This document shows positions 51,919-64,000 of a stretch of DNA of 64,000 nucleotides, piece by piece. The translations under genes were made by a program, and so were the position numbers. Numbering within the stretch: position 1 is the stretch's first letter; every line of letters starts with the position of its first letter. Location: contig PEZS01000008.1 of the NCBI GenBank assembly GCA_002778785.1, positions 69,207 to 133,206 on the forward strand, given 5' to 3'. The DNA comes from Bdellovibrionales bacterium CG10_big_fil_rev_8_21_14_0_10_45_34 (GTDB lineage: Bacteria > Bdellovibrionota > Bdellovibrionia > Bdellovibrionales > 1-14-0-10-45-34). Below the pieces are notes generated by a model that was given only the letters and a program-made list of their open reading frames with translations, did no database searches and was not told where the DNA came from.

Positions 51919-52446
51919 ATGAAACCATTCGCCCACTTGGCAAAAACTTTAACCTGCTTATTCGCTCTAGTGCTATCAGGAGGCGCTACCATCTGCCAAG
52001 GCCAATCTAAGGGCCAATCAAAATCACGCGACTCTAGCTATATCAATCTCCATCTTGGTCCAACACTGCCAAATCAAATAGATGGCGTAACAGAGATTTT
52101 ACCTTCTTGGGGCGCGCGGTATGGATTTCCTATCTTCTCTGGATACTTACTCGAGTCAGGAGCTATCATTAGTCGGGGCAAAGGCACCCACGCTTATGAT
52201 TTTCACACATCGATTCGTTCGGATATGGATATCAACGGGTATTTAATGGCTATTATGTATCTCGGTGCCGACTTTCACTATTACGCGCCCCCTCACTCTG
52301 ACTTTCATAGTGCTTTTGGGGGTCACGTGGGAATCGGAATCACAGCCCCCATCATCGATTCTATTTGGATTCGCTCTGATATGAAATTTAATATTAATCC
52401 CGGAACATCACTCTATATTGGATTCGGCTTAGAGATGCCAATTTAG
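51919..52446 (+). CDS. Small outer-membrane barrel-like protein
   Basis: 175 aa. Signal peptide ending GATICQG (about 28), then amphipathic beta strands (YINLHLGPTLPNQI, GRGKGTHAYDFHTSIRSD-type turn, FHYYAPPHSDFHSAFGGHVG, SLYIGFGLEMPI). No family recognised. The 3' end overlaps the convergent addA-like gene by 18 nt, so each gene's stop codon lies inside the other. Confidence 0.72.
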   Translation: MKPFAHLAKTLTCLFALVLSGGATICQGQSKGQSKSRDSSYINLHLGPTLPNQIDGVTEILPSWGARYGFPIFSGYLLESGAIISRGKGTHAYDFHTSIRSDMDINGYLMAIMYLGADFHYYAPPHSDFHSAFGGHVGIGITAPIIDSIWIRSDMKFNINPGTSLYIGFGLEMPI

Positions 52447-55400
52447 CCGAAAACATTTTTTAGAAAAAGGATAGACGGCAACGAGATGGCATTTTGATCC
52501 TTTCCAAATCTGAGAAGTTGCTTCTGAATAAAGCTCAAGCTGCTTGCGAGCTTTGTCGACTTTTGCCTCATCCCCCGTCTTGTAGTCTACAATCCAGTAT
52601 CCGGCGTCAGTAAAACCACACAGATCTATTGCACCTGATAGCAAATGCCCTTCGTGCACAAAGCTAAATGGAAATTCCGCTTTGCCAGATTTCATCAACT
52701 GAACAAACGGAAACTCCTCTTGCTCAAACAGGTAATTGAGCGCATCAAGAACATACTGATCTTCACTTTCAAACAATTGTTGCGTAATGTGCGCAGGATC
52801 GGACTCTGTTTTTTGAAGAATCTCCATCAATCGGTGAACCTTGTTACCAAAAACCCTCGCATTTAACCTCTCCAGCCAACCTAAAGTTGAAACGCGCTTT
52901 CGTTGCCAGCTCTCCCTCTCATCTTTATTTAGAAAAGCAGAAACAGAAAGATTCAAAAATGAATCATCCCGCTCAGGCTCTGATCTTTGTGATACAAATA
53001 GCGACTCTGGCGCTCGCAGCAGAGGGGCTTCCGGATCGGATAGCTCAGGAGCCGGCTCTTCAGAAGGCAAACTCGAACTGCCGTCTTGCTGCGAACTCCA
53101 AACCTTCGATAGCTTTTCTCCGGCAGATAATGCCAAGTGAAAACGAGCCTGCTCTCTAGAATAATCAGAAAGGCTTCCGATGATAGTTTCTGCCCATGAT
53201 GATTTTTCAAAGCTGAATTTGATCAGATCGGACATATCTAAATGATCGCCAAGTTTCCAATGATGAGGAGGCTCGGGAATCAGTTTTGAAGACGGAGACA
53301 TTGTAACCCACAACGATTGCTTGGCTCTAGTGAGGGCCACATACAGAAAGCGCGAAAACTCCTCTTTCTCGCTCGCCTTCTTCAACTCCGCATGAGATTG
53401 AGTTATCCAATTGTGAACAATTTCACCATCGATCTCACTTTTAAGAATAAGAGTGTAAGCTCCGCTTTTATCATCCACAGGTAGTAGCGAATCTGGCTGA
53501 TGCCTCAAACCTTTGCCGGCTCGACTAACAAGTACGTGCTCGAACTGCAAACCCTTTGATGCATGTATCGTCATCAACTGTACTCGATTAGTTTCAAACA
53601 AGCCTGGGGCATCGCTATCTGACTCGCGATCTTCAACACGATCTAGAATAGAATCCAAAAGAGTCTCTAACTGAGAGGCCTCCTTGTAAGACCCATCTTT
53701 TAGCATATGGACAATCTTCCATATGTTCGCCTCTCTCACTCCCGTCGAGTCTATTGCAAAACTTGTCGAAAGAACGCCACGGGATTGCAAAAACTCGTAG
53801 AGGGCGCTGCTCAGCCCAGAACCCAAAAAAATGTTGTAAATTCGAATAAGCTCTTGAAACTTTAGCAAAAGCAGCTCATCCAGCAGGCGGGCTTCATTTG
53901 AGGTGAGACTCCGACTCAAAAAGTCAAAAAGTGAATCCGATTTAGGCCAGAGCTTTCGAAGCGCAATAAAGCTAGTGTCTTCTATATGAAACCAGGGGCT
54001 CCTAAGAAGTCCAAACAGAACGATATCATTTTCTGGTTCAAACAAAAAACGGCAAAACAACGCCAAATCCTTTACTTCTCTTCTCCTTTTGAAGCCCTTT
54101 CTTGCATGAACAAAAACTGGAATTTTATCTAGCTTGAGATGTCTACCAATTTCTACGAGATCTGAGTTACTTCTCGATAGAATGACAATATCTTCGTAAC
54201 TAGCACCAGAGGCGACAAGTGAGGCAATGTGACTTTTGATAGAAAGAACTTCGTCAGAGAAATCAAGACAGACCTCTAAATGCAAATCAGAAGTCGAGCC
54301 CTCACCGCTTTTATTCGCAGGTTCCATGGGTGTAAAGGCGGATAATCCTGAAAATATTTGATTGAAAACATGCACCAATCGCCCTTGAGACCTATAGTTC
54401 TTTGATAGGGTCTCAAGTTTAAACTGAGAAGCCTTAAACTCAGCCTTTACTCCCTCAAACACTTCTCTACGCGCGCCCCGAAAAAAATAGATGCTTTGTT
54501 GAGGGTCTCCAACAAAAACACACGATTTGTCTGAAATCCAAAGATTAAAAATTCTCATTTGCAGCGGATTCGTATCTTGAAATTCGTCTACAATCCATAG
54601 GTCGACCTCTCTTCGAAATTCTTCGAGAGCCTCGGGAAACTTCTGGCTTGCAAGAAGGCACAGGGGTGCTAGCTCGGAGACACTCACTTGCGAAGAAATC
54701 ATCCGTGAGTTCCACCATCCTTCAAAAAATCTTTGCGCCAACTTATCGAAAAGAACATTACATCGCAAAAACAACTCAGAATTATCTTTCTTGCTAAGAT
54801 GATTCCTTAGAATCACTACATTCTTCTTTAACTCTGGAATAATTTCATCGATCGCTAGCTTATCTGGGTCAGAAGCCTTAGTGCTTTTTCTAAACGACGA
54901 CGTACACAGCCATTCAATTTCGCACTGGTCTTTTGATGTCCAGCTATCCAAATCTTTTTTTAAAAAAACCTGGGCCCGCAAAAGATGTTCCTGAATCTTA
55001 GAGTACCTACTTTCCTTCAAATGCGGTGATATCAGTCTCAGCAGTTCTTCGATTTGCGAAACTGCCACAGAGACGATTCGTCCAAGATAAATTTTGTGAA
55101 GCTCAATATCTAAAGGTCGCAAAATTGGAGTTTCGATTTTTTGTCGCGCGTATTCTAGAAGGTGTAACACAAGGCCTCGATAGCCGTAGATTTCCAAGAG
55201 TTCTTGAAACTCGAAGGAATCGGCATTGGATGGATCGTATTTCTGGCGGCTTTCTCCTATTAGCGACTTCAACTGCAGCATGGCTTCTTTTTGAACAAAA
55301 CGCTCACTCACTAACTCTATTTGTTCAATCACATTCAGGTTAGGACGTACTCGATTCAAAAAATCATAGCAGAGCCCGTCAATGGTTGTAGTGACGATAC

Positions 55401-55635
55401 TTTTTTGAGAAGAGGCAGCCCGTAAAAAATGAGCGTCCCCCACTTCAATGGCACATCGAATAATTCTCTCTTTAATTTCATGCGCAGCTTTTTTGGTGAA
55501 TGTTGTAACCACAATACGCGGATAGGATTGCTGCCTTGAGAAATGGTTGAAGAAATATTCTTTCACATCTTTGACAAGCCCTGTGGTCTTGCCTGCTCCG
55601 GCACCAGCTTGTCTTAATACTTTAAACTTCTCCAA
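52429..55635 (-). CDS. addA: AddA/RecB-like UvrD-family helicase-nuclease
   Basis: 1068 aa. Superfamily 1A helicase fused to a RecB-type nuclease: Walker A QAGAGAGKTTGLV (residues 9-21), Walker B/DExx VDEFQDTNPLQMRIF (near 350), motif III/IV GDPQQSIYFFRGA, motif V TIHASKGLQFEHVLV (about 690), motif VI VALTRAKQSLW, and the C-terminal PD-(D/E)XK residues in GAIDLCGFTDAGYWIVDYKT (about 1000-1020). The length fits AddA-type subunits. It starts 11 bp after the addB-like gene, and together they should process double-strand breaks. Confidence 0.9.
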   Translation of the reverse strand: MEKFKVLRQAGAGAGKTTGLVKDVKEYFFNHFSRQQSYPRIVVTTFTKKAAHEIKERIIRCAIEVGDAHFLRAASSQKSIVTTTIDGLCYDFLNRVRPNLNVIEQIELVSERFVQKEAMLQLKSLIGESRQKYDPSNADSFEFQELLEIYGYRGLVLHLLEYARQKIETPILRPLDIELHKIYLGRIVSVAVSQIEELLRLISPHLKESRYSKIQEHLLRAQVFLKKDLDSWTSKDQCEIEWLCTSSFRKSTKASDPDKLAIDEIIPELKKNVVILRNHLSKKDNSELFLRCNVLFDKLAQRFFEGWWNSRMISSQVSVSELAPLCLLASQKFPEALEEFRREVDLWIVDEFQDTNPLQMRIFNLWISDKSCVFVGDPQQSIYFFRGARREVFEGVKAEFKASQFKLETLSKNYRSQGRLVHVFNQIFSGLSAFTPMEPANKSGEGSTSDLHLEVCLDFSDEVLSIKSHIASLVASGASYEDIVILSRSNSDLVEIGRHLKLDKIPVFVHARKGFKRRREVKDLALFCRFLFEPENDIVLFGLLRSPWFHIEDTSFIALRKLWPKSDSLFDFLSRSLTSNEARLLDELLLLKFQELIRIYNIFLGSGLSSALYEFLQSRGVLSTSFAIDSTGVREANIWKIVHMLKDGSYKEASQLETLLDSILDRVEDRESDSDAPGLFETNRVQLMTIHASKGLQFEHVLVSRAGKGLRHQPDSLLPVDDKSGAYTLILKSEIDGEIVHNWITQSHAELKKASEKEEFSRFLYVALTRAKQSLWVTMSPSSKLIPEPPHHWKLGDHLDMSDLIKFSFEKSSWAETIIGSLSDYSREQARFHLALSAGEKLSKVWSSQQDGSSSLPSEEPAPELSDPEAPLLRAPESLFVSQRSEPERDDSFLNLSVSAFLNKDERESWQRKRVSTLGWLERLNARVFGNKVHRLMEILQKTESDPAHITQQLFESEDQYVLDALNYLFEQEEFPFVQLMKSGKAEFPFSFVHEGHLLSGAIDLCGFTDAGYWIVDYKTGDEAKVDKARKQLELYSEATSQIWKGSKCHLVAVYPFSKKCFRLNWHL

Positions 55636-55646
55636 CTGGATGTCCT

Positions 55647-58424
55647 TTAGCCATGTAAATGAGGCGCCCTACATATTGACACGAAATCGCAATAGTCACA
55701 GATCTTAGTTTCTCGAGGAATGGCATCAAAAACACCCGCCTTCTCAAGTTCGGTGAGCCTAGCGATCTCGCAGAGATTGCTGTGCAAAAACTCATGAAGT
55801 CCCGCTACGTCGACCTGCCTGCTTTCGGTCAAAAGAATCTCTGTAATAGAATTGCCCGCTAACCCAATTCCCAAGTCTCGAGACATCGATCGTAAGTCGA
55901 TGTACCCAGAAACGACAACCTTCGCCTTCAAGCCTCTTTCAAAAATCATTTGGTTTGCGCCAAGCCAATACAGCGCAGGCTGAAAGTTACCTTTAGGCAC
56001 CCATTCCTTAGTTGTTTTGAAACTTGACGTAGATGACTTGTAATCAAAAACGGCCGCGGTATCATCACTGAGTATATCGATACGATCGATTTTACCTGTA
56101 ATAGCAACGGGCAGTAAAACCTTATCTTGTTTGAGAAGCTCATTCGAGCCTAATAAGCCGAAGACTGGGCCCGCTTCAATTTCAAATGCCTCTTCAAGTA
56201 ACTGCGCAACTATAATGAGGCCTCTTTGCGCCAGGGCCTTTCGATACTCCGCCTCAGCAGTGAGAAACCTACGAAGTGTCTTCAACATCACCGCACTGTT
56301 AACTCGCAAAGAGTCCGTATCGATAAACCGAATGTTCTCCTCTTTAAGAGCCTCTGAGTAGGAAGAATCAAAAACTTCATTTAAAGTCTCAAGCCGCCAG
56401 TTCTCTGACTGACATTTTCTCAGAAGAGCGTGAATCAAAGTACCTTTAGAAAGTAGCCCAAGATCTTGGTCAATTAATTCACCTCCGAGTAAGCCCACTT
56501 TGCGAGAAGCCATATACCGAAAGCCGCAATCAGACAAAGTTTTCAATGCTGAGGCCGACCACTTTTTGTGAGGGGTCAACTTAGGGGCATGGGCAATGCG
56601 GGAATTCGCAGCAGAAGAATATGCAGTTGCCTCATCGGCCTGAATTCCTTGGCTAAGTTGACGTTGTACATTATCCCATAGAGTCGCCCCAGGTAAATTC
56701 AATGACTCCCAATCGACTCCTTTTTCTTTTGCACAAAGTAACCATTCCAAAGAAGGAAGCAGCTCTCGCCCATCAAGCGCCAAGTTGGAGTGTGAAACAA
56801 CAACTTCCCGCAGGGACCGCTTGAGCAATACACTCAGCGAAGTGCGGCGAAGAAAAACATCTGCGCTCCCTAGGCGAATACCTAAGTCCCTCTCTATCTT
56901 TGAGATCTGATCAAATGAAATTTCAAGAGGCGCACCTTGAGCCAAGTACTCCTCTGAACAACCCAAAATATAAGCGTATTCCAGTTCGAGTGAAATCGCT
57001 TCTTCGTAAGTGACAAGATGTATGCCCTCGAATGTATCGGGTTTAAGCACAACTTCTTTTTGAGAGATTAACCTAAGTGCTTGAGTCCAATGCTGAAAAC
57101 TCGAAAGGTAACGATCCGGCATTTCTTCAAAGAAGGATTCGAGCATACGTGAGACAATCTCGTCTCTGAGTAAATCAGAATTTCTCATGGCAACATCGTT
57201 GAGCCACGCCCGTCCCGACTGGGGCTGAGTGTAGTTGTCCGCAAGATAGGAATTATCTAGTCCGGGCATCTCTAGACACTCATGTTGGTTCCCTAAGAGG
57301 TTTTTAAGACTCTTTCGAAACTCTCTAAAAGACTGCTCCTTGTATCTACCGTTACAAGATCGATCAAGAGAGAGCATTTCAAAATTGTACTTCCCGTAAA
57401 CCATTTCTAGTCGCGAAAGCAAGTTTTGAACCTGAGGGTGCTCACAATATCGAAAGCTCGCGGATCTTTGAGACCTTATGCCACTAGATTTTAACAAGTG
57501 GAGTAGCACCGTCTTATAGACTGAAAGATCAGGTGCGACTATAGCGATCTTCTTAGAATCACCGCAGACGCTGAGCCATGACTCTACACAAGACACCGCA
57601 TCGCGAACTTCAGCCAACTGACTCTGAAAGCGCTTCACGAAACAATTAGCACCTTTGTCGTTTCTATTCGTATCTGCACTTACTTGTTTCGCCTTCTTTG
57701 TAATGCCAGCCAAATTCTCGAGGATTTTGTACCTAGATTCGATGTAGCCTGCTGACGCGTCCAACTCCGAAAAAGTTCGTATGACGTAAATATCGCTCTG
57801 GCGAGATATTGCCGATATTAGCTCGACATCAAGCGAAGATATATTAAGACCAAGATCCACATAAATTCGCTTCGGAAGCGACAATTCATCAAGAGATAAT
57901 ACGTAGGTAGCAGCCCAGCCTTCGCAGATGAGCTGATGCTCATTGACATGAAGCCAGAGTTTTCTAGCCAATTGCCAGTTTGCCAGTACCGAACGTTGCT
58001 CGTCTTGATCTATTTGCGTTTCGGTCGCTCCCGCTTCCCATTCCTCGACAATGTCAGCGAAGCCGGTAGCGGCAAGAGTCGGCAGATAAAATTCTAAAAT
58101 ATCTAAAGGTCGATTTTCTTTTGGGAGCTGAAACGAATTCTGCTTAAGATACTCTTCGAGTAACAACCCCATTTGAGCCCGAGACACCAAGTTCCAAGTA
58201 GGGCGTCTTATCAAGAACTGACTCAAAAAGTAACTAGAGTAGATCTGAAAGTTCTGACTTGAAAAAAAACCTTTTGATTTCGTCAAACGATTTAGAAGCT
58301 GCTTTCTCGCATAAGGATGTGCCGTTAGAACGAGAGTGTCTTCCTGCTCGAGGTAAAGTTCTAATTGATTGTAGTCACTAAGATTGAGAACATGAAGCAT
58401 TCTAGGTACGAACCATACCACCAA
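55647..58424 (-). CDS. addB: AddB-like nuclease with iron-sulfur staple
   Basis: 925 aa. No Walker A is visible, as in many AddB subunits. The C-terminal third has an RecB-type nuclease: ALKTLSDCGFRYM (first Cys, about residue 630), KIDRIDILSDDTAAVFDYKS (Asp and Lys of the PD-(D/E)XK site) and ICDYCDFVSIC near the C-terminus, giving C-x2-C-x5-C. Together with the earlier Cys this fits the iron-staple of AddB. The first in-frame start is used; an ATG at 58400 would shorten it by 8 residues. An inverted repeat precedes it. Confidence 0.85.
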   Translation of the reverse strand: MVVWFVPRMLHVLNLSDYNQLELYLEQEDTLVLTAHPYARKQLLNRLTKSKGFFSSQNFQIYSSYFLSQFLIRRPTWNLVSRAQMGLLLEEYLKQNSFQLPKENRPLDILEFYLPTLAATGFADIVEEWEAGATETQIDQDEQRSVLANWQLARKLWLHVNEHQLICEGWAATYVLSLDELSLPKRIYVDLGLNISSLDVELISAISRQSDIYVIRTFSELDASAGYIESRYKILENLAGITKKAKQVSADTNRNDKGANCFVKRFQSQLAEVRDAVSCVESWLSVCGDSKKIAIVAPDLSVYKTVLLHLLKSSGIRSQRSASFRYCEHPQVQNLLSRLEMVYGKYNFEMLSLDRSCNGRYKEQSFREFRKSLKNLLGNQHECLEMPGLDNSYLADNYTQPQSGRAWLNDVAMRNSDLLRDEIVSRMLESFFEEMPDRYLSSFQHWTQALRLISQKEVVLKPDTFEGIHLVTYEEAISLELEYAYILGCSEEYLAQGAPLEISFDQISKIERDLGIRLGSADVFLRRTSLSVLLKRSLREVVVSHSNLALDGRELLPSLEWLLCAKEKGVDWESLNLPGATLWDNVQRQLSQGIQADEATAYSSAANSRIAHAPKLTPHKKWSASALKTLSDCGFRYMASRKVGLLGGELIDQDLGLLSKGTLIHALLRKCQSENWRLETLNEVFDSSYSEALKEENIRFIDTDSLRVNSAVMLKTLRRFLTAEAEYRKALAQRGLIIVAQLLEEAFEIEAGPVFGLLGSNELLKQDKVLLPVAITGKIDRIDILSDDTAAVFDYKSSTSSFKTTKEWVPKGNFQPALYWLGANQMIFERGLKAKVVVSGYIDLRSMSRDLGIGLAGNSITEILLTESRQVDVAGLHEFLHSNLCEIARLTELEKAGVFDAIPRETKICDYCDFVSICRAPHLHG

Positions 58425-58466: not shown

Positions 58467-58483
58467 ATGCCAAGATGTGGCAT
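58467..58483 (-). terminator. Possible weak terminator between barrel and addB-like genes
   Basis: atgcca-agatg-tggcat is a perfect 6-bp stem that overlaps the barrel gene's stop codon. On the minus strand it is followed by a partly T-rich stretch. Weak and possibly chance. Confidence 0.3.
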
Positions 58484-59586
58484 TATCGGCGCTCTTTCAG
58501 CCCTCTAGGGCGACCATTTACAAAGTTGAAATCCGGATCGAAGGAGAGTTCAATGGTAAGCTGAGCCGCGTATCTTCTTTGCTCGTGCTGTCCGGGATAT
58601 TGCCCTAGCTCAACGCCCCAGGTTGCTGCATCAATTTTAAACAATCCCATTTTTACTCCTAAACCGGCGGTATAATATCCCTGATGGAAGCCCCCTCTGA
58701 CGTCAATAAAAGGAAGTGCAAACTCTATCCCCATATGCACTTTCTTTCCAAGCTGTTCATTGTAACGATTAATATTTTTAATATCGATTGAAGGCCTTAT
58801 GTCTACCAACATGCTTTCAATCTCCAGCCCCATACCTGCAATCATTTCATCGCGCTGATTTGGCGGAGTGTTCGCGCCAGGCGAGGCCACAAACTTTGTC
58901 ACGCCAACATCCTTCCAAACAAAACTGAATTTTGGACGAACACTTGTTGGCAGCTCAAACAAAAGCCCTACGTCGGCGCCATAACCAACACCTTGTCGAT
59001 TAACTTGCTCTCTTAAAGCTGTATCTGAAAGGGTTCCAAGGGTGTCCAAGCCCAAGGGCAGCTCAGCCCCAAATCGTGTGACACGTTTACCGACGACCCC
59101 AATGTAGGTCATAGGCAAAAGCTCGAATGAAAAACCCATGGCAAAACCGTAGTCATTAACAAGTCGCAAGTTAAGGTTCGGAAACGCTGGGTTTCCAAAA
59201 TTAGCAGCGATATCAAAGCTATCATAAACAGCTAGGCCAAGATTCTTAGCGACAAAGGCGCTCTTGAATCCGCCACCCACCCAGGCATTTTTTCCGTAAT
59301 ATTGTCTGAGAGTATCGCTGATGCTCCCGCCGCTTTGCGTACTGCGAACATCTTCTATAATTTCTTGGCCATTCGCAGCCAGCTGAGGATCAAAAATAAC
59401 AAACTCAAACCCTTTAACTCGCGAAAGGGCCGCTGGATTGTAAAACAATGCATCGCGGTCTTGAGCAATTGTGGTGTAGGCGTTTCCCATTCCTAGCGCC
59501 CGAATAGATCTGTTGATCTCAGCAAGCTCGGCAGCAAATGCTCCCTCACCAAGAAGAACAGTTATCATGGCAACCAGCAATTTCAC
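58483..59586 (-). CDS. PorV/FadL-like outer-membrane barrel
   Basis: 367 aa. Signal peptide ending GEGAFAA (about 18). The N-terminus reads INRSIRALGMGNAYTTIAQD followed by DALFYNPAAL, the signature of FadL/PorV-type barrels (NPA near residue 50). Barrel strands follow to a C-terminal positively charged tail (GRPRGLKERR). Paralogue of the 60579-61646 protein, with the 59597-60496 lipoprotein gene between them and 10 bp from it. Possible hydrophobic-substrate channel or secretion partner; not proven. Confidence 0.8.
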   Translation of the reverse strand: MKLLVAMITVLLGEGAFAAELAEINRSIRALGMGNAYTTIAQDRDALFYNPAALSRVKGFEFVIFDPQLAANGQEIIEDVRSTQSGGSISDTLRQYYGKNAWVGGGFKSAFVAKNLGLAVYDSFDIAANFGNPAFPNLNLRLVNDYGFAMGFSFELLPMTYIGVVGKRVTRFGAELPLGLDTLGTLSDTALREQVNRQGVGYGADVGLLFELPTSVRPKFSFVWKDVGVTKFVASPGANTPPNQRDEMIAGMGLEIESMLVDIRPSIDIKNINRYNEQLGKKVHMGIEFALPFIDVRGGFHQGYYTAGLGVKMGLFKIDAATWGVELGQYPGQHEQRRYAAQLTIELSFDPDFNFVNGRPRGLKERR

Positions 59587-59596
59587 AACACTACTC

Positions 59597-60496
59597 CTAA
59601 GGAATCAAAGCACAAACACCCAGGGCTTGAACAAGAGACCTATCTTGTATTCCAAGCCCCACACTTTCGTTTTCAACAATCAATGCCCGCATGGCCGCTC
59701 TTTGTGGCGCCGTCACCGCGCTTGGATCTTGTACTGAGCAAAAGTTAAGGGCTGGGTCTTGGTCTTCAAGTTGATCGCAAACACCTGCAATAGTTTCTAG
59801 ATCCTGTCCCCCGATTGAGGTTCCAGCCGCTGAAAAAGAAGAGATTGCAAACGCCAAAGACACAGTCAGTTGATTAACTTCATCGTTAGTCAAATCAGTC
59901 GCACCCGAGCCGCCACACGGATCCCAGGTTGAATCGATTGTACCGTCTTCGTCAGCATCGCCCCTATATGTGAGATACGTACCTAAAGTAGCGAGGCCCA
60001 CGAAAGTCCCCAAGAGATTCTCCGAAACACTCCGACTTGTAGCGCTTGGAGCGATTGCTGCCAGAATGTCGATAGAGGTCACGCAGTCTTCTGATTTGGT
60101 CTCTGTGCCCAATGGAAATGAGCTGACGAGTAGCTGAAAAAGTCTACCCGCACTGTCGTCGTCAGCTTGAATTGTGTCTATGAGTGCAAGAATATCTAGT
60201 CCACACCTGCCAGCGTATGCAGAGGCCAGACCTGCAAGATTGTTTCTGTTCTGTTTGTTGACGTCCGTTAGAAGATCATACTCTGCGATGGCCTCGCTCC
60301 AACTTCCCTTCGCCAAATACCGATCAAAATTGTATTGAATAGCATCTTGAGTGCCTTGATCGGCCATGCTTTCGAAGATATTTGCGCAGCCCGATAATGA
60401 GATTGAACTCAACACAACGCATACCACTGCAACAAGAATTCTTTTGCCACGATCAGGCGTGTTTAATTTTTGAACACTTTCTGCTAAATACTTCAT
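59597..60496 (-). CDS. Lipoprotein with Ca-loop-like segment, between two barrel genes
   Basis: 299 aa from the ATG at 60496, where the MKYLAESV reading gives a normal lipoprotein signal (SLSGC, Cys about 37); an ATG at 60523 adds 9 residues through a tandem duplication. The body is helical and Cys-containing (AGRCGLDILALIDTIQADDDS, ADEDGTIDSTWDPCGGSG), with DADEDGTID resembling a Ca-binding loop. No family recognised. Probably partners the barrels on either side. Confidence 0.75.
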   Translation of the reverse strand: MKYLAESVQKLNTPDRGKRILVAVVCVVLSSISLSGCANIFESMADQGTQDAIQYNFDRYLAKGSWSEAIAEYDLLTDVNKQNRNNLAGLASAYAGRCGLDILALIDTIQADDDSAGRLFQLLVSSFPLGTETKSEDCVTSIDILAAIAPSATSRSVSENLLGTFVGLATLGTYLTYRGDADEDGTIDSTWDPCGGSGATDLTNDEVNQLTVSLAFAISSFSAAGTSIGGQDLETIAGVCDQLEDQDPALNFCSVQDPSAVTAPQRAAMRALIVENESVGLGIQDRSLVQALGVCALIP

Positions 60497-60541
60497 CCAT
60501 GAATCCTTAAATACTGCGTCCATGATTCCTTAAATACTGCG
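60496..60541. repeat. 23-bp tandem duplication of a ribosome site and start
   Basis: tccatgaatccttaaatact (60496-60515, continuing gcg) is repeated with one mismatch at 60519-60541. On the minus strand each unit contains AAGGAATCATG or AAGGATTCATG, so ribosome site and ATG exist twice. 23 bp is not a multiple of three, so the two ATGs are in different frames; the lower copy leads to the ATG at 60496. Confidence 0.85.
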
Positions 60542-60578
60542 TCTCCGATTTTTTAGATACCTTGCCCTTGTTTTCCTT

Positions 60579-61646
60579 TTAAAATCGAAACGAAAACTTT
60601 CCTATGAGCCTTCGTGACTCCCTCGCTTGCGCTGCTGTACCGATTTCTTCTCCGTATGTCGCCACTTGAAACTGCATAAATTTCACAGCCATTTCTGCAC
60701 CAAGAGTCCAATACCTTTGGTTCATGCCAGCTCTCAAAAAAACAAAGTCTCCGATGTTTAGCTCCATGCCCGCGTGCACCTTCTTCATCGAATCGGTCTC
60801 TTCGTAAGCTCCCATAGCATCTCGGTACTCCGCTCCAATTTGCATCCTCACGAGCGGGGACAAAATGGGATTGATAGAAATTCCAAGGTCCAGAGTTTGC
60901 TTGATGTTTTGGGGACGCCTCGTGGTGTTGTGTAAAAAGCCAGATCCGGCATCAAGAGCCGTGTCACCTGCATCTCTTAGAACACCTGCCACAGAAGGCA
61001 AATACTCCCAAGGCCCAGTTAAAGTGAGTGCCGCATCACCTGCAATGCCGCCGCCTTCATGCACAAGATCAGAGATTTGTAGGTTTGTTGAGTCCGCCGG
61101 AAGCACTTCTCGAATCTCAGACCGATTGATAACTCTTCCGTTGAACCCCAGTTTGACCCGCCCATCCCAAAACCGAAAATTAAAGCCGGCAACTAGGGCG
61201 TAATCATTGAAATAGTTTAAGGTGTAAGTTTGCCCCGTCTCGTCGACTTCGGCGTCGTAGGATTGTTTTACTAAGAAGCCCATGCCAAAGTTTGTGTTCA
61301 CATAAGACGGAAACAACTGAAATTTTGCGTGATACGGATACCCTTGGTTCTCTCTAAGAGTGTTGAGGAGGCCCTGCACATCGGTTATCCCACCCGTATT
61401 CTGGTATACTCTCTCTGCCGCTCCCGCTGAAACATGAACTTCTGGATCGATCATCGTGAGTATCGGGCCTCTTAGGCGTCCAAGACCATTAGGATTTAAC
61501 AGAAGTGAGGTTTCGTCGTTGACTGTGGCAATACCCACGCCGCCCATTCCCATCTGCCTGACACCGTTGTAAAATTCGTAACGTTCACCTGTATAGGCTG
61601 ATGTCGCAAACAGCGACAAAAAAATGCTAAAAGAAGACAGTCTCAT
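60579..61646 (-). CDS. PorV/FadL-like outer-membrane barrel (paralogue)
   Basis: 355 aa. Signal peptide ending TSAYTGE (about 20), then YNGVRQMGMGGVGIATVNDE with LLLNPNGLG in place of the NPA motif. The barrel strands end in KFSFRF. Paralogue of 58483-59586 with recognisable shared blocks (MGMGxVGxA, then MQIGAEYRDAMGAYEE against IDIRGG-type segments). First of three minus genes; the 174 bp upstream hold divergent promoters with the plus lipoprotein. Confidence 0.8.
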   Translation of the reverse strand: MRLSSFSIFLSLFATSAYTGERYEFYNGVRQMGMGGVGIATVNDETSLLLNPNGLGRLRGPILTMIDPEVHVSAGAAERVYQNTGGITDVQGLLNTLRENQGYPYHAKFQLFPSYVNTNFGMGFLVKQSYDAEVDETGQTYTLNYFNDYALVAGFNFRFWDGRVKLGFNGRVINRSEIREVLPADSTNLQISDLVHEGGGIAGDAALTLTGPWEYLPSVAGVLRDAGDTALDAGSGFLHNTTRRPQNIKQTLDLGISINPILSPLVRMQIGAEYRDAMGAYEETDSMKKVHAGMELNIGDFVFLRAGMNQRYWTLGAEMAVKFMQFQVATYGEEIGTAAQARESRRLIGKFSFRF

Positions 61647-61820
61647 GTGTCTCTTTTCGGTACATTGCTGTCTCGATCCAACACGACTGCGACAAACTAG
61701 ACCCCTTCATCTTCGATCTAAGTCTAGAGTCTCAACCTTTTAGTCAAGACCCGACTCGACCTAGACGATCATCTATCTGTAAAGAGAATATTTACCGCAA
61801 TACGCACCTGGAGTGACACA

Positions 61821-62597
61821 ATGATGGAATCCTCTAATAGCATGACGTTGTCTAAACAAATGGCCACCTATTTAAAGAAAACTCTTGTTCTGGCAAATTG
61901 CCTGAGTCTATTTGTGCTGACGGGGTGTGAAACCTCCGAGGACAATACGATTGCAAAAGCCCAACACCAACTGAACAAAGCGCAAACAGCTAACGATGGC
62001 TTGGTCGTATATCAGTCTGTAGCGGGAATAACGTCGCCGCAGGCCGCCCTTATAAGATGTTCTGCATTCTTTTTAATGGTTGGCTTCACTCCTGCTAGTA
62101 ACAAATTCGTAAATGCTTACAAATCAATGACGGATGGGACGCCTGGCGATCCAGCACTTAAGATGATGAACTTGCTGTCAATCGAGGCGAATACAAATCC
62201 AAATCCAGTCACTCAAGCCATAACGGGCGGAACCCCTGCTCAAGATGCTTCATATTTAAGCACTGAATGCGCTCGAAGCGGATCCAGCGGAATGGCCTTC
62301 TTAGCAGCAGCTACTCAAATCTCGACATCGATTGCCATAGCCGCACGAACGTTGACCTCTGGGGTAACTGTGGACAACTACCAGTCATTACTCGCGGACT
62401 TAGTTGCCGATCCAGATTCTGTTGCAAATGAAGCGACTCTAACTGCTATTGGTAGCGCAGCCTCAACAGCTTACGACACCTACTGTAGTGGCGCCAACGC
62501 GACTTCTGATTCGTGTAAAGAGATTAGTGCCGCTGTGACAACCGGTACGGATGCGAAATCTATTGGGCAGGCACTTGCCGATCTTCTTAAGGAATAG
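61821..62597 (+). CDS. Lipoprotein divergent from the barrel cluster
   Basis: 258 aa from the ATG at 61821, supported by GGAGTG 7 bases upstream. Lipobox LFVLTGC (Cys about 34). A helical coiled start (IAKAQHQLNKAQTANDG) is followed by Ala/Thr/Ser-rich helical domain with three Cys (IRCSAFF, STECARS, TYCSG...DSCKE), similar in style to the 59597-60496 lipoprotein. No family recognised. Likely part of the same barrel-lipoprotein system. Confidence 0.75.
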   Translation: MMESSNSMTLSKQMATYLKKTLVLANCLSLFVLTGCETSEDNTIAKAQHQLNKAQTANDGLVVYQSVAGITSPQAALIRCSAFFLMVGFTPASNKFVNAYKSMTDGTPGDPALKMMNLLSIEANTNPNPVTQAITGGTPAQDASYLSTECARSGSSGMAFLAAATQISTSIAIAARTLTSGVTVDNYQSLLADLVADPDSVANEATLTAIGSAASTAYDTYCSGANATSDSCKEISAAVTTGTDAKSIGQALADLLKE

Positions 62598-62695: not shown

Positions 62696-64000
62696 CTATA
62701 ACATCTTTCTGAGCTGCTCTTTAGTGAGTGGCGGATGGTACGGATTAAATTTTATTTTCTGGGGCACGACCATTGTATCCGGTGCTTCGTGGTGCCTGCC
62801 AGGAAAGAAAACTTCAAACCCCGATTTATCTCTTAGTGCCATCACTTTTCCTAAGGCGTTTCTCGTCGTGTATTTATCAAAATAAGAGTTGAGGTCCTCG
62901 CCGAAGGCCGATGAAAGTTCCCGACGAAAAACAGCAGTGCCCACAGACTGAAAAATATATTTTTTGTAATAATCTCCCAAAACGGATTTTAGAGATCGCC
63001 CCTTTGAATCGAACAAGCCAGCTAAAAACGAAATAAAATTTCGCCCTTCGGTATAGGACTGATACGAAGTGGTTCTAGCGTATGCTCCTCGCCTATCCAA
63101 ATTTACCGGCTCCAAAATCCCCTCTTCAACAACCTCGTAATTGGCGTCTCTCCAGCTCGCTATGGCTTCATCCATCCAACCGGCATTTCCGTCTTTCGGC
63201 ATCATAGACCTTGCATGATACATATGAGAAATCTCGTGGGAAAGAGCCCAAAGTGAAGTCGCAGTAGCACCGCAGTACTCCATTCCACCGCCACCTTCAG
63301 TCAGATAAATGAGCAGTTCCGCAAAGGGATACTCACCGTAAGCAGACTCGAGTTCGGCCATCATTTCGAGCGCATGTGAAAGTGCTTTGTCGGTCTCTCC
63401 TCCCACGGCCGCATACACCCTTACCAAGACGTCCCGACCATCAATGGAGCGATAAACTCCCATGGCTTCTTCGGGGAACGCACCCTTGGGAGCGATGTGG
63501 TAGTATATCGAACTTGACGTGAAGTAATCTGGGTAAGAAATCAAAAACTTATTAGGCGCCGCTTCCACCAAACTTCCGTTGGTGTAAATGACGTGCTCTC
63601 GCTTAAGATTTTCCAAAGAAACAAAGAATTCAATGGGATGGTGATCGTATTCAAGATTGCTCACCATGTACTGTTCAAGAAACTGACGGTCCTCTAGGTC
63701 GCTAAAAAAGAAGGCATTGCGAACCGAAGCAGCATCTTCTCTAGCTAGATCGCTACCATGTTTATCAACGAGCTCCTCATCAAGATCAGAAAACTGGAGA
63801 TTCTTAGTAGATTGCGTCTGTGCCGTTAGAGTGTGAACGCCCGGCCCCACATGCGTCGATAAATAACGAATCCTTGTATTGGCATCTTGGGTTACACCAG
63901 CAATTGAATGGCTTAGAAATTCACTTTTTTCTCCATTAATAAAAACTCCTGAAATCCAGTTACCGCTGAAATCAAAAACCGGGTGCCCTCCGTTTTTAAC
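62696..64000 (-). CDS. Gluzincin (M1-like) metallopeptidase-like protein, 5' end missing
   Basis: The frame is open to the right edge, so the gene is partial; 434 residues are inside the window. An internal GTG at 63850 is not the true start, because the upstream residues (HPVFDFSGNWISGVFINGEK and more) continue a beta-rich N-terminal domain of peptidase M1 style. The catalytic core has HEISHMYH (HExxH) followed about 20 residues later by GWMDEAIASW, supplying the third ligand Glu. The C-terminal 170 residues are helical. It converges on the lipoprotein gene. Confidence 0.78.
   Translation of the reverse strand, partial: VKNGGHPVFDFSGNWISGVFINGEKSEFLSHSIAGVTQDANTRIRYLSTHVGPGVHTLTAQTQSTKNLQFSDLDEELVDKHGSDLAREDAASVRNAFFFSDLEDRQFLEQYMVSNLEYDHHPIEFFVSLENLKREHVIYTNGSLVEAAPNKFLISYPDYFTSSSIYYHIAPKGAFPEEAMGVYRSIDGRDVLVRVYAAVGGETDKALSHALEMMAELESAYGEYPFAELLIYLTEGGGGMEYCGATATSLWALSHEISHMYHARSMMPKDGNAGWMDEAIASWRDANYEVVEEGILEPVNLDRRGAYARTTSYQSYTEGRNFISFLAGLFDSKGRSLKSVLGDYYKKYIFQSVGTAVFRRELSSAFGEDLNSYFDKYTTRNALGKVMALRDKSGFEVFFPGRHHEAPDTMVVPQKIKFNPYHPPLTKEQLRKML

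Follow-up and report, generated by a model that had tools for sequence, protein, structure and literature searches.

We found that a FadL-fold outer-membrane barrel (b1) and an acidic lipoprotein (LPP1) are encoded as a pair across Bdellovibrionota, and that in Bdellovibrionales the pair sits in a conserved locus with two further barrels (b2 and b3) and a second lipoprotein (LPP2). We examined this locus in a 64,000-nucleotide stretch of DNA (the window) on contig 8 of a 3.06 Mb genome. When b2 was compared, the nearest named relatives of this genome were MAGs of Bdellovibrionales and Bdellovibrionota. We tentatively favor the view that the locus encodes an importer of the FadL type, equipped with a periplasmic lipoprotein, that takes up hydrophobic compounds and probably fatty acids of the prey.

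All four genes of the preliminary description lay at the positions it gave. Three are on the minus strand: b1 (58483-59586, 367 aa), LPP1 (59597-60523, 308 aa) and b2 (60579-61646, 355 aa). LPP2 (61821-62597, 258 aa) is divergent, on the plus strand. The 174 bp between b2 and LPP2 (61647-61820) presumably hold both promoters; a promoter and terminator scan gave no consensus match there, and its sites were no commoner than in shuffled sequence. Genes for an AddA-like UvrD helicase and an AddB-like PD-(D/E)XK nuclease (52429-58424, minus strand) are neighbors outside the barrel-lipoprotein system. The claim that two paralogous barrels flank LPP1 held, but the true number of barrels is three: b3 (window-equivalent 67112-68266) starts 3.1 kb past the window end. 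Between LPP2 and b3 (window 62696-64000 and L002:5903-9663), we also observed a gene for a secreted protein that resembles M1 peptidases (very weak Pfam match), together with a RiPP cluster of bufferin type (MNIO maturase, DUF2063 partner and a small Cys/His-rich precursor-like ORF). Among 37 loci, these were seen only in the window's genome.

Locus numbers used here are those of a relative's genome, which we take to be Bdellovibrio bacteriovorus HD100. Because bd3139 (UvrD/REP helicase) and bd3140 (AddB; both PMC3593177), the orthologs of the AddA- and AddB-like genes, and the kinase Bd3148 (PMC6733907) anchor the gene order, the genes between them could be numbered with none left over: b1 is Bd3141, LPP1 is Bd3142, b2 is Bd3143, LPP2 is Bd3144, b3 is Bd3145 and CoaE is Bd3147. 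Bd3141-Bd3146 were unmentioned in the literature searched, which comprised the main text of papers available without subscription. Bd3155, which is strongly induced on prey contact, was rejected as part of the locus because the numbering places it beyond Bd3148. A search of HD100 for MliC found nothing.

We compared the corresponding regions of 36 relatives after ORF calling and clustering, which gave 37 loci including the window's own. We observed a recurrent gene order with few changes: AddA-AddB-b1-LPP1-b2, LPP2, b3, a small protein, CoaE, a Ser/Thr kinase and a FadD-type acyl-CoA ligase. The arrangement was kept in most of the 37 loci, which is therefore more than chance. Of the barrels, b2 is the most conserved within the order (56 of 60 relatives), and it is usually accompanied by at least two further paralogs, mostly nearby. 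LPP1 was present in 34 and LPP2 in 28 of the 37 loci, and the spacing of LPP1 and b1 was tight, from small gaps to overlaps. The small secreted protein beside b3 (L002:11580-12230, L031:11566-12246 and L045:5190-5756, with Bd3146 and a c8-type counterpart) was conserved in position; it matched no Pfam or NCBIfam family and may be a further outer-membrane component. The Ser/Thr kinase (L045:2567-4591, Bd3148 counterpart) has a C-terminal PEGA domain, which is frequent on envelope-associated proteins.

Five genomes of one Bdellovibrionales family (G003, G032, G035, G056 and G206; 1.2-2.6 Mb) lacked LPP1. Four of them were also checked for b2: three had no match and G032 had a weak match only, such that genomes without LPP1 were also without a strong b2 match wherever both were checked. 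Two of the five have a clear canonical FadL instead.

Outside the order, the LPP1-b1 pair was retained in different surroundings. Of 192 genomes drawn from across the phylum, 115 had a match to the LPP1 profile; among the weaker matches, many covered part of the profile only. We selected 20 loci outside the order on LPP1 score alone. In 18 of them the adjacent gene, in the same orientation, encodes a b1-type barrel, and the barrel match was weak in two of the paired loci (L103 and L104). On closer look, one further locus contained an intact b2-LPP1-b1 arrangement, giving 19 of 20 with a barrel next door. The preliminary description held that a lack of co-occurrence in relatives would speak against a shared system; given the frequency of b2 and the adjacency of LPP1 and b1, across the order and beyond it, the proposal withstood this check. 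In one distant relative, a 2100-aa repetitive lipoprotein-like protein (L105:9660-15962) adjoins the pair.

These loci bear on whether the genes are neighbors through long-standing synteny alone, without a common complex. AddAB, CoaE and the kinase are also syntenic with no evident shared role, which favors this explanation. However, LPP1 and b1 remain adjacent in other classes where the whole surrounding gene order has changed (RsmD, CoaD and an aminotransferase), and the pairing is thus not a by-product of regional synteny. The tight or overlapping spacing within the order also speaks against it, and we regard synteny alone as the least probable of the explanations weighed here. For LPP2, synteny is the basis for placing it in the same complex, to which b2, b3 and LPP2 may all belong.

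The three barrels are paralogs. As the preliminary description had proposed, b1 and b2 are related (BLASTP, 25% identity over 357 columns, E = 2e-21; profile-profile probability 100%, E = 7e-54), and both have signal peptides. The b3 profile matched those of b1 and b2 at E of about 1e-46. In a maximum-likelihood tree, b1, b2 and b3 formed three ortholog clades with 99-100% bootstrap, and they are therefore old, separately kept genes.

We next considered the fold of the barrels, which had been labeled PorV/FadL-like. The label stood at the level of fold. An AlphaFold2 model of b1 built from 17 sequences (pLDDT 81, pTM 0.78) has a predicted FadL fold, with about 14 strands and an N-terminal hatch. 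Foldseek matched it over nearly its full length to PorV (8gl6_F, top match, E = 1.2e-9; also 6h3i_F) and to FadL and TodX (E = 6e-9), with BamG behind them (9n2d_B, E = 6e-6). The TM-scores were ~0.5, which therefore indicates the same superfamily and not close kinship. The hatch contains an NPA motif in which N and P are invariant and A is at least 90% conserved (mixed b1/b2/b3 alignment). The label did not stand on family cut-offs: against PF03349, b1 scored 16.6 bits (cut-off 29.7) and b2 and b3 had no match, and against the PorV/PorQ family NF033709 (cut-off 90), b1, b2 and b3 scored 33.4, 29.5 and 25.7. Sub-threshold PorV-family matches occurred in 18 of 23 b1 orthologs, and these and the sub-threshold PF03349 matches were centered on the hatch motif. 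A PDB sequence search with b2 alone gave no match.

Both lipoproteins have a lipobox (LSGC in LPP1, LTGC in LPP2) whose Cys is invariant across relatives. In LPP1 this Cys is residue 46 counted from the first in-frame start, which may lie upstream of the true start. Pfam searches with every aligned LPP1 and LPP2 ortholog found no family. The model of LPP1 is all-helical (pLDDT 75), and a fold search with it returned weak TPR matches only (E = 0.06 or worse). LPP1 contains conserved cysteines, its C-terminal half being Cys-rich, and a DxDxDGxxD motif (DADEDGTID here; 59933-59959, minus strand) that resembles a calcium loop. In 27 aligned orthologs D197 of this putative loop was invariant and D189 nearly so. 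LPP2 is also Cys-rich, with five invariant cysteines including that of the lipobox. The description of LPP2 as a lipoprotein of similar style was right as to the lipobox, but homology was weak: BLASTP found no similarity between LPP1 and LPP2, and the profile-profile probability fell from 92% with signal peptides to 57% without them. Judged by these profiles, LPP1 and LPP2 may share a very remote ancestry.

The calcium-loop-like motif and the many conserved cysteines would fit extracellular proteins, which raises the possibility that LPP1 and LPP2 are surface-exposed, adhesin- or receptor-like lipoproteins, delivered or displayed by the barrels for prey contact. The neighboring kinase Bd3148 is reported to reach its highest expression in attack phase and to impair predation when disrupted by a transposon (PMC6733907), possibly through a polar or regional effect. 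However, the LPP1-b1 pair is kept in several classes, probably including non-preying lineages, and the predicted all-helical, TPR-like LPP1 is typical of periplasmic scaffolds. A role at the cell surface is therefore improbable in our view.

A feature of b1 points to the periplasmic side. b2 ends in the aromatic residue typical of outer-membrane barrels. In contrast to b2 and b3, b1 does not stop at the final strand but continues with a linker and a basic tail (...GRPRGLKERR; 58486-58530, minus strand). Within the order, every one of the 34 orthologs has the final RR and 24 have LKQRR; the tail was absent from distant orthologs outside the order. The C-terminus of an outer-membrane barrel lies on the periplasmic side, and the tail is therefore likely a docking or anchoring element. 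LPP1 has a median net charge of -20.5 compared to about +6 for the tail. The acidity of LPP1 relative to neighboring genes was higher inside the order, where b1 is tailed, than outside it (P = 0.006), a contrast that is suggestive only. LPP1 acidity and the b1 tail are possibly unrelated, which would weaken docking as part of an importer.

Having a constant lipoprotein partner and a basic tail in the periplasm is more in keeping with a docked subunit than with a channel that works by itself. The barrels could be accessory components of an envelope machine, in the way that PorV belongs to type 9 secretion and BamG to the BAM complex of Bacteroidota. In that case b1 and LPP1 would aid the assembly, export or carriage of outer-membrane or surface proteins and transport no lipid. 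The strongest argument for such a role is that known FadL channels stand alone, whereas PorV and BamG are FadL-fold barrels with fixed partners. PorV was the top structural match to b1. However, b1 scored far below the PorV family cut-off, LPP1 has no detected type 9 homology, and no type 9 secretion translocon genes were seen in the locus. BamG is a FadL-family barrel that binds the outer-membrane lipoprotein BamH (PMC12611786), and BamG structures also matched b1. This match was weaker than those to PorV and FadL. The Bacteroidota pair also differs in that the lipoprotein BamH lies at the cell surface and BamG rests on BamA; a PDB sequence search with LPP1 matched no BamH chain.

The LPP1 profile also weakly matched the N-terminus of BamD lipoproteins (YfiO; E = 8e-5), in line with its TPR-like N-terminal helices. 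This match spans only ~60 residues including the signal peptide, and LPP1 differs from BamD in its Cys-rich C-terminal half with the calcium-loop-like motif. LPP1 was rejected as the BamD of its genome: separate YfiO genes scored above cut-off in seven of seven genomes, including the window's own (C6:39225). No central machine gene lies within the locus. Taken together, an accessory role in an envelope machine is a possible reading but not the one we prefer, and we rank uptake slightly ahead of it on the basis of the comparisons below.

Two other systems were compared. PopA (Bd0427), the Bdellovibrio major outer-membrane protein, occurs in the same organisms and is a barrel with a plug and a distant resemblance to FadL. 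It differs in being a 16-stranded pentamer encoded at another locus, and the available portion of its description reports no paired lipoprotein (PMC12228718). The Myxococcus gliding proteins GltA, GltB and GltK were set apart by published lengths and predicted domains, not by sequence (GltA 256 aa and GltB 275 aa, PMC3169522, compared to 355-384 aa for the barrels here).

The case for uptake is strongest where four lines of evidence meet: the FadL fold, the nearby FadD-type ligase, the lack of a canonical FadL in HD100 and its genus, and recorded uptake of prey fatty acids. Like FadL, TodX and CymD channels, the barrels have a predicted N-terminal hatch with an NPA-type motif and a FadD-type ligase in the neighborhood. 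The locus differs from these channels in having three paralogs, a dedicated lipoprotein and a basic C-terminal tail. FadL and TodX transporters are not known to depend on a lipoprotein of their own, and this counts against an importer, as do the modest TM-scores and a top structural match, PorV, that is not a lipid channel. A PF03349 search found no canonical FadL in HD100 or in the congeneric genomes of the sample (g14). In the window's own genome, a different FadL-like gene does score above the PF03349 cut-off, which also counts against an importer.

We observed the FadD-like ligase in 26 of 37 loci, usually adjoining the kinase. Among the genomes tested, 12 of 13 that have the locus and one of five that lack it retained the ligase (P = 0.008, Fisher's exact test). 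This co-loss is confounded, because all locus-free genomes tested belong to one family and mostly have small genomes, and there were exceptions in both directions (G038, locus without ligase; G032, ligase without locus). Absence of fatty-acid breakdown from locus-free genomes was rejected, as all tested genomes encode acyl-CoA dehydrogenases, whether or not they have the locus. The ligase and CoaE are possibly ordinary neighbors.

If the locus does encode an importer, b1, b2 and b3 would each pass hydrophobic molecules over the outer membrane through a barrel with an NPA-type hatch, the likeliest substrates being long-chain fatty acids or other lipids from prey. The acidic, helical LPP1 would be held below b1 in the periplasm as its fixed partner, docked in Bdellovibrionales by the LKQRR tail, and would take or pass on the substrate or keep the barrel open. 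The FadD-type ligase could then trap the fatty acid as a CoA thioester. A broader proposal is that b1 and LPP1 form an unrecognized Bdellovibrionota-wide outer-membrane machine in which a dedicated periplasmic lipoprotein of the TPR type gates a FadL-fold barrel, acting in this order via the tail. In Bdellovibrionales the machine would have grown to three barrels and two lipoproteins, serving prey-lipid intake or predator-envelope building. We consider this proposal rather unlikely.

The barrel fold itself is not new. We found no earlier account of the pairing of such a barrel with an unclassified helical lipoprotein across the phylum, of the increase to three barrels in Bdellovibrionales, or of the tail that hardly varies. 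The pair would be a third setting, after PorV and BamG, of a FadL-fold barrel within a fixed protein pair. Uptake of prey fatty acids is reported (PMC7529429, citing Kuenen and Rittenberg 1975), yet HD100 has no standard FadL family match. Present almost throughout the order and, it appears, not studied so far, the locus provides a candidate set (Bd3141-Bd3145) for the route of fatty acids over the HD100 outer membrane. These data suggest that it may be the missing prey fatty-acid uptake route of Bdellovibrio-like bacteria.
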